Program-made: the position numbers and the translations under genes
Origin: Tabrizicola thermarum
GTDB lineage: Bacteria; Pseudomonadota; Alphaproteobacteria; Rhodobacterales; Rhodobacteraceae
Reading direction: 5' to 3'
Assembly: GCF_003574395.1 (NCBI RefSeq)
Contig: NZ_QMJY01000013.1
Location: 1-64,000 of the forward strand
Length of the DNA: 64,000 nt
Notes under the pieces: generated by a model
Databases searched by the model: none
What the model was told of the DNA's origin: nothing
What the model saw: only the letters and a program-made list of their open reading frames with translations
Shown: piece by piece, positions 3,280 to 54,066 of the stretch
Layout of the letters: every line of letters starts with the position of its first letter
Numbering within the stretch: position 1 is the first letter of the stretch

Positions 3280-3353
3280 CAGCCCAAGGCGGCCATTACC
3301 CACGGCGGCGGGACACCCTTCCCCAACGAAGGGCTTTTAGCTGGAAGGCTACC
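3280..3353 (+). ncRNA. serC leader RNA (serC motif-like) with competing hairpins over the ribosome binding site
   Basis: The 5' leader of serC in alphaproteobacteria carries a conserved structured element, the serC RNA motif (established knowledge; matched from memory, not by search). Directly visible: CCCTTC 3316-3321 can pair with GAAGGG 3328-3333, while the overlapping CCTTCC 3317-3322 can pair with GGAAGG 3343-3348. The latter is the Shine-Dalgarno sequence six bases before the serC ATG. The two pairings exclude each other, which would suit a translational switch. The ligand, if any, is unknown. Confidence 0.6.
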
Positions 3354-4511
3354 ATGACAGACCTGACCCCGCCGGCCAAGCGCCCGGCCAATCCGCGCTT
3401 CTCCTCCGGCCCCTGCGCCAAGATCCCCGGATATTCCCTCGACATGCTGGCCGACGCGCCTTTGGGCCGGTCGCACCGCGCCGCCGTCGGCAAGGCCAAG
3501 CTGAAGGAGGCGATCGACCTGACGCGCGAGATCCTCGGCATTCCCGCCGACTACCGGATCGGCATCGTTCCCGCATCCGACACCGGGGCGGTGGAAATGG
3601 CGATGTGGTCGCTTCTCGGGCAGCGCGGCGTCGAGATGCTGGCCTGGGAGAGCTTCGGCGAGGGCTGGGTGACGGACGTGGTCAAGCAGCTGAAACTGGA
3701 CGCGACGGTCCGCAAGGCGCCCTACGGGCAGATCGTGGACTTCGCCCAGGTCGATTTCGACAAGGACGTGGTCTTCACCTGGAACGGCACCACCTCCGGC
3801 GTCCGTCTGCCGAACGGCGATGCGATCCCGGCGAACCGTCAGGGCCTGACCATCTGCGACGCGACCAGCGCCGCCTTCGCGATGGACCTGCCCTGGGACA
3901 AGCTCGACGTCACCACCTTCTCCTGGCAGAAGGTGCTGGGCGGCGAGGGCGCGCATGGCATGCTGATCCTCAGCCCCCGCGCGGTGGAACGGCTGGAGAC
4001 CTACACCCCCGCCTGGCCCCTGCCGAAGATCTTCCGGCTGACCGCCAAGGGCAAGCTGATCGAAGGCATCTTCCAGGGCGAGACGATCAACACGCCCTCG
4101 ATGCTGGCGAACGAGGATTACCTAGTGGCACTGAAATGGGCGAAGTCCATCGGCGGCCTGCCGGCGCTGATCGCCCGCGCCAATGCCAACGCGCAGGTCG
4201 TCTGGGACTTCTGCGCCGCGAACCCCTGGATCGCCAATCTGGCGGAGGACCCGGCGACCGCCTCGACGACCTCGGTCTGCCTCAAGTTCACCGACCCGCG
4301 CGTCACCGACGGCGAGGCCTTTGCGAAAGCCGTCGCCAAGCGGATCGAGAAGGCGGGCGCGGGCTTCGACCTCGGCGCCTACCGCGACGCGCCGCCGGGC
4401 CTGCGGATCTGGTGCGGAAGCACGGTCGAGACCTCGGATGTCCAGGCGCTGATGCCCTGGATCGCGCATGCCTTCCACGCGGAAATCGCCGCGCTGTCGC
4501 AAGCCGCCTGA
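3354..4511 (+). CDS. serC: Phosphoserine aminotransferase SerC
   Basis: PLP-dependent transfer of the amino group from glutamate to 3-phosphohydroxypyruvate, the middle step of serine synthesis. The product has 385 residues; the PLP lysine is Lys193 in [16 protein letters not shown]. The protein is of the longer class found in alphaproteobacteria and archaea. The frame is open far upstream, but the ATG at 3354 has a good GGAAGG binding site at the right distance and starts the conserved region ([19 protein letters not shown]). serA follows 97 bases downstream, probably in one transcript. Confidence 0.95.
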
Positions 4512-26624: not shown

Positions 26625-27245
26625 ATGCGCATCCTTCTTCGTGGCGTTGTCGCCATGGCGGCCATTGTCGTCGCCTCGAATATCCTTGTTCAGTATCCTC
26701 TGGGCACCTTCCTGACCTGGGGGGCGATCAGTTATCCCTTCGCCTTCCTGGTCACCGATCTGGTGAACCGGCTGGAAGGCCCCTCCGCCGCGCGTCGTGT
26801 GGTGTTCGTGGGTTTTGTGACCGGCATCGCCTGTTCCTTCGTCGGCACCCGGATCGTCGGTGAGTTCGGCCCGCTTGTCACCCTGCGCATCGCCATCGGC
26901 TCGGGCCTGGCGTTCCTTTGCGCGCAGCTTCTGGACATCTCGGTCTTCAACCGGCTCCGGAAGGGCAACTGGTGGATGGCGCCGCTTGTGTCGACGCTTG
27001 TCTCTTCGACGCTCGACACCGCGATCTTCTTCACCATTGCCTTCTCGGCCGCCCTGACGGTGCTGGAACCCGGCAACGACGTGTCCTGGGCCACCGCCCC
27101 GATGCCGCTGCTGGGCCTGGGGCCCGAGGCGCCATTCTGGGTCTCGCTCGCCATCGGAGACTGGCTGGTCAAGCTTGTGATGGCGTTGGTGGCACTTGTG
27201 CCTTTCAGATTGGCGATTGCCAAACTCACGGCAAAGGTAGCGTGA
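26625..27245 (+). CDS. Queuosine precursor transporter, YhhQ family
   Basis: A 206-residue membrane protein with about six helices. The motifs SNILVQYP, ISYPFAFLVTDLVNR and LVSTLVSSTLDTAIFFTIAF match the VUT_1/YhhQ family (COG1738), which takes up queuosine precursors such as preQ0 and preQ1 for tRNA modification. The frame is open from 26541, but the ATG at 26625 begins the first helix (MRILLRGVVAMAAIVVASN). A strong TTGACA box occurs just after the stop, belonging to the next transcription unit. Confidence 0.88.
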   Translation: MRILLRGVVAMAAIVVASNILVQYPLGTFLTWGAISYPFAFLVTDLVNRLEGPSAARRVVFVGFVTGIACSFVGTRIVGEFGPLVTLRIAIGSGLAFLCAQLLDISVFNRLRKGNWWMAPLVSTLVSSTLDTAIFFTIAFSAALTVLEPGNDVSWATAPMPLLGLGPEAPFWVSLAIGDWLVKLVMALVALVPFRLAIAKLTAKVA

Positions 27246-27251
27246 TTTGTT

Positions 27252-27257
27252 TTGACA
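27252..27257 (+). promoter_or_regulatory. Candidate -35 box of the RNA upstream of arfB
   Basis: A perfect TTGACA lies at 27252-27257, seven bases after the YhhQ stop. The best -10 match downstream is weak (around 27276-27287, within GGCTCACCTTAT), as is common in this family of organisms. It would place the RNA 5' end near 27290-27295, just before the extended Shine-Dalgarno sequence. The start site is inferred, not seen. Confidence 0.45.
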
Positions 27258-27315
27258 AACACAAAATCTGTGGCAGGCTCACCTTATCGGCAACCATTTG
27301 AAAGGAGGTGATCCA

Positions 27316-27372
27316 GTGTCTAGAGTGATATTGGAGAGAGGTGTCGGGACAGTCGGAGGGCGTGTTTTCTAA
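27316..27372 (+). CDS. 18-codon leader ORF behind an extended Shine-Dalgarno sequence
   Basis: GTG start, then SRVILERGVGTVGGRVF and TAA. The AGGAGG lies 8 bases before the GTG within a 15-nt match to the full anti-Shine-Dalgarno region, far stronger than any other ribosome binding site in the window. The ORF covers the 5' arms of P2 and P3 and part of P4 of the RNA, so its translation would open them. Whether the peptide itself matters is unknown; the ORF may only load a ribosome. Confidence 0.5.
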   Translation: MSRVILERGVGTVGGRVF

Positions 27373-27441
27373 GGGCAGCCCCTGGAAAATAGACCACCGA
27401 TTGGATTTGGATGCCTAACTGGCCCATCTCCTTGGATCTCG

Positions 27442-27480
27442 GAAAGGGTTGTCTGAGCAGGGCAACCCTTTCTCTATTCT
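27442..27480 (+). terminator. Hairpin before arfB, possible attenuator
   Basis: GAAAGGGTTG (27442-27451) pairs perfectly with CAACCCTTTC (27463-27472), loop of 11 nt. It is followed by TCTATTCT, only moderately T-rich. Its position between the structured RNA and the arfB ATG (27504) allows it to end the RNA or to attenuate arfB. Confidence 0.6.
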
Positions 27481-27503
27481 GCGCCCTCGAACGGCCTGCC
27501 GAC

Positions 27504-27926
27504 ATGCTCCACATCACCGAAACCCTGGCCATCGCCGAATGGGAACTGTCCGAAAGCTTCATGCGCGCCTCGGGGCCCGGCGGGCAGAACGTCAACAAGG
27601 TCTCGACCGCCGTCGAACTGCGGTTCGAGGCCGAACGGTCCCCGCATCTGGCCACCGGCGTGAAGGCGCGGCTGAAAAGGCTGGCCGGGCGGCGCTGGAC
27701 GAACGAAGGCGCCATCGTCCTTCAGATCGATGAAACCCGCAGCCAGGCCCGCAACCGTGACATCGCGCGCGAGCGGCTGGTGGAGCTGATCCGCGCCGCT
27801 CTGGTCACTCCGAAACGCCGGATCGCCACCAAGCCCACTCTGGGCAGTCAGCGCCGCCGCATCGCCGCCAAGACCCAACGCGGCGAGGTCAAGGCGCTGC
27901 GTGGCAAGGTGGGGGACGAGGAGTGA
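27504..27926 (+). CDS. arfB: Alternative ribosome-rescue factor B (peptidyl-tRNA hydrolase)
   Basis: A 140-residue protein, the same length as E. coli ArfB (YaeJ). It releases stalled nascent chains from ribosomes on non-stop mRNA. The catalytic GGQ (Gly26-Gly27-Gln28) lies in ASGPGGQNVNK, and the C-terminal tail is long and basic (KPTLGSQRRRIAAKTQRGEVKALRGK), which occupies the mRNA channel. No Shine-Dalgarno sequence precedes the ATG, in contrast to the preceding leader ORF. The stop overlaps the following gene (GTGA). Confidence 0.95.
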   Translation: MLHITETLAIAEWELSESFMRASGPGGQNVNKVSTAVELRFEAERSPHLATGVKARLKRLAGRRWTNEGAIVLQIDETRSQARNRDIARERLVELIRAALVTPKRRIATKPTLGSQRRRIAAKTQRGEVKALRGKVGDEE

Positions 27927-45556: not shown

Positions 45557-45633
45557 GGCTAGGTAGCTCAGCTGGTTAGAGCGTGCGACTCATAATCGCA
45601 AGGTCGAGGGTTCGAGTCCCTCCCTCGCCACCA
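45557..45633 (+). tRNA. tRNA with CAT anticodon, probably elongator tRNA-Met
   Basis: 77 nt with encoded CCA. D-stem GCTC/GAGC, anticodon stem TGCGA/TCGCA with loop CTCATAA, T-stem GAGGG/CCCTC and loop TTCGAGT. The acceptor is GGCTAGG/CCTCGCC, perfect except for a U4:C69 mismatch. It lacks initiator features (C1:A72-type mismatch and GGG/CCC anticodon-stem pairs). A tRNA-Ile2 with lysidine at C34 cannot be excluded, as its anticodon loop is similar. Confidence 0.92.
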
Positions 45634-53727: not shown

Positions 53728-53884
53728 CGGTCCGGTATTGGCGGCCTTCCGCCGCTGGTACTCTGCCTGCCCCATGATGCGCTGCTACCGCGCCTGGCGC
53801 TTCCGGGCCGCGGCATGTCGCTTTCCGTCTTGCCAGCCCGGGCGTTCCGGCGCAGAAAAAGGGCGATGGTTCCCGGCATGACGC

Positions 53885-54066
53885 AAAGCGCCGCCGGGTG
53901 AAAAGGGAACGGGGTGAGGTGTAGGCATCAGCCGCCAAGTCCCCGACTGCCCCCGCAACTGTAAGCGGCGAGCGACCCCTCATTGCCACTGGCCGGATGG
54001 CCGGGAAGGCGGGGGGAAGCGGCGACCCGCGAAGTCAGGAGACCTGCCATCGGATCAGTCAGCCGC
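53885..54066 (+). promoter_or_regulatory. Cobalamin riboswitch
   Basis: Class I core elements are visible in order: AAAAGGGAACGGGGTG (53901-53936 region), the GACTGCCCCCGCAACTGTAA block (53945-53964), GCCACTGG and GGGAAGGCGGG arms (53985-54014), and the B12 box GAAGTCAGGAGACCTGCC (54031-54048). It precedes DUF1636 by 30 bases and controls the cobalamin transport and salvage operon to 60212. The region 53728-53884 before it holds no gene that I can support. Confidence 0.95.

Follow-up and report, generated by a model that had tools for sequence, protein, structure and literature searches.

The nearest described relative of the RNA treated here is the Caulobacter RNA CC2171 (RF01867), which Rfam types as an sRNA gene and which was reportedly first described by Landt et al. 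in 2008. For its homologue in Mesorhizobium huakuii, MH_s33, an RNA-seq transcript of 215 nt is listed (PMC5596092), one covarying pair was added to the family in Rfam 15 (PMC11701678), and in Caulobacter two previously predicted ncRNAs, named in the supplement, were found to be translated (PMC4117421). A literature search for the function of CC2171 or RF01867, with supplements outside its reach, found no paper.

Further systems invite comparison. The extended Shine-Dalgarno (SD) sites of S. aureus likewise pair past the canonical SD towards the start codon, tolerate G:U and often belong to small ORFs, but they gain two further pairs on ordinary mRNAs, whereas here up to 17 nt are involved on a dedicated RNA (PMC13009471). 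Among the dual-function RNAs, the alphaproteobacterial rnTrpL/peTrpL of Sinorhizobium is also a small RNA with a tiny ORF; it is, however, leaderless and part of the trp attenuator, and the available portion of its account mentions no extended anti-16S stretch (PMC10117765). Nor does the available text on Pos19 of Rhodobacter sphaeroides, another dual-function small RNA with a tiny ORF, mention such a stretch. The aSD-loop sRNAs of the SmelA075 / RS0680a group resemble our RNA in having an anti-SD-like sequence, yet they expose it in CCUCCUCCC loops, whereas the mimic described below pairs with the RNA's own SD; a perfect SD with an ORF goes unmentioned in the accessible part of that source (PMC3927594).

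How does the present locus compare? Within the window, by which we mean the whole stretch of 64,000 nucleotides analysed, the RNA lies on the plus strand, as do all of its features and both adjoining genes, a yhhQ-type gene (26625..27245) immediately upstream and an arfB-type rescue gene (27504..27926), a neighbour outside the RNA gene; both gene names are those of the initial annotation. Against RF01867 the RNA scores 30.3 bits (E 8.2e-5), below the curated cut-off of 75, and a gathering-threshold scan of the window gave no CC2171 match. When the two are aligned, they have an identical 5' block (GAAAGGAGGUGAUCCAGUGUCU / CAACAAUCGAAAGGAGGUGAUCCAGUGUCU), and they agree in being free-standing genes with a terminal hairpin (27441-27473 in the window RNA); CC2171-type elements also contain a short in-frame ORF. 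In contrast, the CAUUGUC/GACAAUG helix of CC2171 is missing here, its 5' strand being deleted and the middle unaligned, no GACAATGG occurs in 27292-27480, and the peptide, the helices and the neighbours are all different. Judged by alignment, the window RNA is a relative of CC2171 and not a member of its family. Elsewhere on the plus strand the window holds a cobalamin riboswitch (53850-54065; RF00174, 120.6 bits), a serC leader (3306-3357; RF00517, 67.4 bits) and a tRNA gene (45557-45630; RF00005, 69.9 bits). An isrA match on the minus strand, at 20 bits against a cut-off of 51, was attributed to chance, and a plasmid search yielded no match.

The anti-16S stretch and the fold around it

The 17-nt extended SD GAAAGGAGGTGATCCAG (27300..27316), the last base of which is the G of a GTG start, complements the alphaproteobacterial 16S end CTGGATCACCTCCTTTC at every base. 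A 16S 3' end was not found in the organism's own assembly, and complementarity was judged against the tails of relatives; in G391 and G421, two alphaproteobacterial genomes, the tail reads GGCTGGATCACCTCCTTTCTAAGG, to which the stretch is complementary along its full 17 nt. As initially proposed, the stretch is unique in the window, being the sole match with up to 3 mismatches (shuffled windows gave a mean of 0.11 matches, and at least one in 10 of 100), and the 12-mer AAAGGAGGTGAT occurs a single time in the assembly, at this RNA. At position -5, 147 elements of the family (Rhodobacteraceae in the GTDB sense) have A in 114, G in 27, C in 6 and T in none, the main change, A to G, being tolerated by wobble pairing. 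One family member in the same place, L109, has a decayed extended SD (AAAGGAGGTGCCTATG) and a different ORF, of 23 codons. In some alphaproteobacterial genomes the extended SD also precedes a few ordinary small genes, whose products are about 55-59 residues long and begin like signal peptides (L067, L085, L150, L151, L259), so it can simply mean strong translation. Further upstream, just 3' of the yhhQ stop, lies a possible -35 element, TTGACA (27252..27257), for which we recognised no good -10. The surrounding TTGACAAACACAAAATCTGTG is present in most of the close relatives compared, and a promoter scan did not pick it up, its single promoter-like site overlapping the RNA element itself.

The RNA is predicted to be highly structured, with z-scores of -4.29 for 27285-27480 and -4.32 for 27295-27436 and, for both segments, 0 of 200 shuffles as stable. 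Just as first drawn, P1 in the predicted fold and the family alignment joins 27302..27310 of the SD to an anti-SD mimic, CATCTCCTT, at 27425..27433; a wider 16S-tail mimic, CTGGCCCATCTCCTT (27419..27433), complements most of the anti-16S stretch. The start codon would sit in the hairpin P2 (27312-27320 with 27327-27335), P4 joins 27350-27356 to 27397-27403, and the apical hairpin P5 (27363..27391), drawn from the predicted fold, contains the stop codon and a post-stop motif, GGGCAGCCC, that is kept in the family alignment. A terminator-like hairpin (27441..27473) follows.

Covariation was assessed for P1, P2, P4 and the terminator-like hairpin in an alignment of 33 family sequences (A1). Its cells are paired in 94.1% of cases, 17 pairs have two-sided changes against 9.3 in shuffles, and the covariation score of 0.326 exceeds both the shuffled value of 0.190, none of 500 shuffles reaching it, and the best slid version (0.143). 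Together with the fold, this argues for the conserved structured RNA that had been suggested. The compensatory changes asked for in the initial annotation exist, and the individual stems differ in them: two-sided changes occur in 6 of the 8 pairs of P4 (helix 3) and 9 of the 12 of the terminator-like hairpin (helix 4), but in 2 of 9 in P2 (94.9% of cells paired) and in none in P1 (96.5%). The latter is to be expected if the SD strand is fixed by 16S pairing, in which case covariation is uninformative. As for termination, the hairpin itself stands, but in the window its U tract is poor (TCTATTCTG) and a terminator scan found no site; relatives' hairpins have longer T runs.

In the initial annotation the SD of this RNA is hidden in P1; is it so in general? 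In the models of 158 family elements the median unpaired probability of AAGGAGG is 0.183, compared with 0.415 in shuffles, which supports sequestration in P1 within the family. The accessibility of the CC2171-like, MSSD-like, Sphingomonadales and Gemmatimonadota elements is close to that of shuffles, and sequestration as a general property was rejected. The mimic is similarly restricted. Its duplex with the anti-16S stretch has a median z of -2.17 in the family, 61% of the 158 elements reaching p <= 0.05 (the window mimic being CTGGCCCATCTCC), a pattern search finds the motif in 120 of the 158, and in L288 it pairs 14/14. Elsewhere p <= 0.05 is reached by 40% of CC2171-like, 22% of MSSD-like and 0% of both Sphingomonadales and Gemmatimonadota elements, limiting the mimic to the family and part of the CC2171-like elements. 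Both tests include a mixed class 'other' (28 elements), with a few duplicates from the window's genus, and leave out twenty entries specified below. The -5 base was also tabulated against the mimic, and any covariation of the two is too weak to claim, 38 of the 158 elements having no pattern match.

Occurrence in Alphaproteobacteria and beyond

A DNA search of 101 relatives found matches in 58. In the genus the RNA is matched in 31 of 32 genomes, its own included (G018 matches in the 3' part only), and relatives' matches often end where the hairpin ends, not continuing into arfB. The core, with at most 2 mismatches, occurs once each in 115 of 149 family genomes (one per genus). As a pattern it was found in 75 of 385 sampled genomes of the class, a reversed-pattern control giving 0 in every row, and in a sample of the phylum in 50 of 86 alphaproteobacterial versus 7 of 213 other genomes; the non-alphaproteobacterial matches in G639, G589, G600 and G668 were discarded, as they start ordinary long ORFs, with the 200 residues shown all open. 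A scan of named genomes gave at least 118 loci, at least 99 of them assigned to Alphaproteobacteria. The RF01867 model itself, run on 289 class genomes, detects 61 with E <= 0.001, of which 9 exceed its cut-off; at the gathering threshold it finds 4 of 18 scanned named loci. By sequence comparison, the same initiation region is seen at the head of free-standing short-ORF RNAs across Alphaproteobacteria, among them the sRNA CC2171.

The encoded peptides are order-specific: VSRxxLExGVGT (18 codons), MSHGSxxRSV (18) and KRCHLAGIAR (14, in Bradyrhizobium), with the further types VSHC..TWI (the CC2171 type, mostly 20-26 codons) and MSSD/MSNE (22-30). One genome, G072, carries both a CC2171-like element (MSHCH..., L045/L139) and one of the Sphingomonadales type (MSHGS..., L140), and as these differ they may be sibling RNAs.

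Two groups outside the class have comparable elements. In Gemmatimonadota (L165, L206, L229, L245), AAGGAGGTGATCC is followed by a TTG-started frame of 20-22 codons, with a WAS(D/G)R-like core common to three of the four peptides; two of these four loci score weakly against CC2171. The analogues of Alteromonadaceae (L399, L400, L216) have TAAGGAGGTGATC / TAAGGAGGTGATCATATG, matching their own 16S end CCTTA, then exactly 18 codons (e.g. MSRVKVFGQAAMSEGRSS) and a hairpin with a T run. The elements thus each fit their own 16S end, with TAAGG here and GAAAGG in the alphaproteobacterial ones. The Alteromonadaceae analogue is rare, with 2 of 79 family genomes and, by a looser pattern, 2 of 229 class genomes, one of which was examined.

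Selection on the tiny ORF

The ORF noticed behind the extended SD runs in the window from GTG (27316-27318) to TAA (27370-27372) and encodes VSRVILERGVGTVGGRVF. Its 18 codons recur in relatives, exactly so in 147 of 158 distinct family elements, despite the variable length of the RNA's downstream half. In these 147, codon 19 is TGA 62 times, TAG 49 times and TAA 36 times. Recounted over all 158, since the 147 had been chosen for their 18 codons, TGG occurs in none, where independence of the two variable bases would predict about 20. Along a 141-row tree built from the upstream gene, there were at least 38 switches of the stop. Before the TG of the start, 230 sites that were not deduplicated have G in 164, A in 62, T in 4 and C in none. 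Outside the family, 151 elements, including loci fetched with a pattern that excludes CTG, which the 230 sites do not, begin with ATG (83), GTG (63) or TTG (5) and stop at TGA (85), TAA (45) or TAG (21). This set leaves out the four Gemmatimonadota loci, the Rhodobacteraceae-type elements and twenty entries, namely genes with longer ORFs (L067, L071, L085, L150, L151, L259), contig ends (L116, L175) and loci of other groups (L166, L170, L200 twice, L212, L216, L219, L227, L247, L253, L254, L273). Sphingomonadales-type elements have 18 codons in 27 of 29 cases, the others being one of 20 codons and one contig end, and the TGG of the CC2171-type 16S mimic lies in frame in 25 of 26 elements, at four different spacings. 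These are strong signatures of selection, by which the ORF is maintained in its start, frame, length and stop.

The amino acids are under less uniform constraint. Codons 2-12 in the family have a pN/pS of 0.51 (bootstrap 0.38-0.67), clearly lower than the 0.99 and 0.87 of the other frames, whereas codons 13-18 stand at 0.96, and codons 2-18 together, at 0.72, are no lower than frame +1 (0.69). These ratios show moderate constraint on the first segment and none on the second. In Sphingomonadales the in-frame pN/pS exceeds that of the other frames, though in only 11 pairs, so that no amino-acid constraint is visible. Frame and length are thus retained, and the peptide partly and in the family only.

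Could the RNA then be a functional micropeptide gene, a very strongly translated mini-mRNA whose product is the peptide, with an SRxxLE[RK]GVGT core in the family? Codons 2-12 make this a serious alternative, the start, frame and stop are kept, and the same extended SD serves further small genes. Yet the peptides differ completely between orders, the number of codons is fixed even though codons 13-18 are unconstrained, the small Sphingomonadales sample lacks amino-acid constraint, and the RNA structure covaries in the untranslated half too. On balance, we regard a role of the peptide alone as somewhat unlikely. Improbable, by comparison, is that the ORF is incidental and the RNA a noncoding one whose anti-16S stretch binds or titrates 30S subunits; full complementarity to the tail, the wobble-tolerant change at -5 and the match of each lineage to its own 16S end would suit it, but not the selection on start, stop, frame and length.

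Neighbouring genes and a possible role

Where flanking DNA sufficed for assessment, 150 of 157 family loci have a yhhQ homologue upstream of the RNA and on its strand, and 117 of 152 have arfB no more than 500 nt downstream. A further 30 of the 152 have the RNA without arfB in the flank examined (about 1.5 kb downstream in most), and outside the family an arfB homologue is near just 1 of 153 elements (1.7-8 kb examined). Neighbours there differ, the largest shared cluster comprising 4 loci, which, with arfB mostly absent, argues that the RNA is its own gene. The predicted conservation upstream of arfB is therefore a property of the family and does not extend beyond it, and the placement always in front of a regulated gene that marks leader attenuators is lacking. 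As the post-stop motif resembles the 3' arm of the hairpin, we also drew an antiterminator in which GGCAGCCC pairs with the 5' arm; it does not covary, 55 of 500 shuffles reach its score, and it pairs no better within than between elements (-12.3 versus -13.0 kcal/mol), so this one candidate pairing gives no support for mutually exclusive terminator and antiterminator forms. The proposal that the RNA is a leader attenuating arfB by ribosome sensing or leader-peptide stalling, attractive for the family synteny and for the hairpin standing between ORF and arfB, is on these grounds highly improbable. The alternative offered beside it in the initial annotation, a separate regulatory RNA engaging 30S subunits, may hold.

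The comparisons among genomes show conservation of the RNA, its pairing potential, the structure of P4 and the hairpin, selection on start, frame, length and stop, and independence of arfB. The reading we tentatively prefer, at a little less than even confidence, is that the RNA, about 180-190 nt long and related to CC2171, is a free-standing and structured mini-mRNA, that selection acts on the loading of ribosomes and on their transit through an ORF of fixed length, and that the RNA may have a dual function. A 30S subunit would be drawn in as its entire 16S 3' tail pairs with the 17-nt extended SD; in the family it would have to open P1 and P2, the helices that contain both halves of the stretch and the internal 16S-tail mimic. 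The ribosome would then translate the fixed-length ORF, which has 18 codons in the window RNA, unfold P2-P5 on its way and finish within the apical hairpin P5. If loading and transit, rather than the peptide alone, are the function, the RNA would alternate between two forms, closed when free of ribosomes and open when engaged by one, and would act in trans; sensing or modulating free 30S subunits is a plausible role. Counting against this preferred reading are the constraint on codons 2-12, which favours a peptide function, the restriction of SD sequestration and mimic to some lineages, the lack of two-sided changes in P1, and the ordinary small genes that share the extended SD.

A more specific version, which we consider rather doubtful, is that of a widespread RNA device that reads the ribosome itself: it would carry a full complement of the 16S 3' tail and, in several lineages, its own mimic of that tail, so that free mature 30S subunits compete with the mimic by strand displacement and transit of a fixed-length, largely sequence-free ORF reports or sets the translation state. 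If it were true, the exact 18 codons with unrelated peptides in Rhodobacteraceae, Sphingomonadales and Alteromonadaceae would be the footprint of the device. The preferred reading, if correct, would turn an RNA listed by Rfam as noncoding into a broad group of translated mini-messages. Such a group would offer a clean natural system in which to follow the effect of an ultra-extended Shine-Dalgarno sequence and the displacement of RNA structure by ribosomes, and it would also address whether bacteria monitor their free 30S subunits with an RNA.
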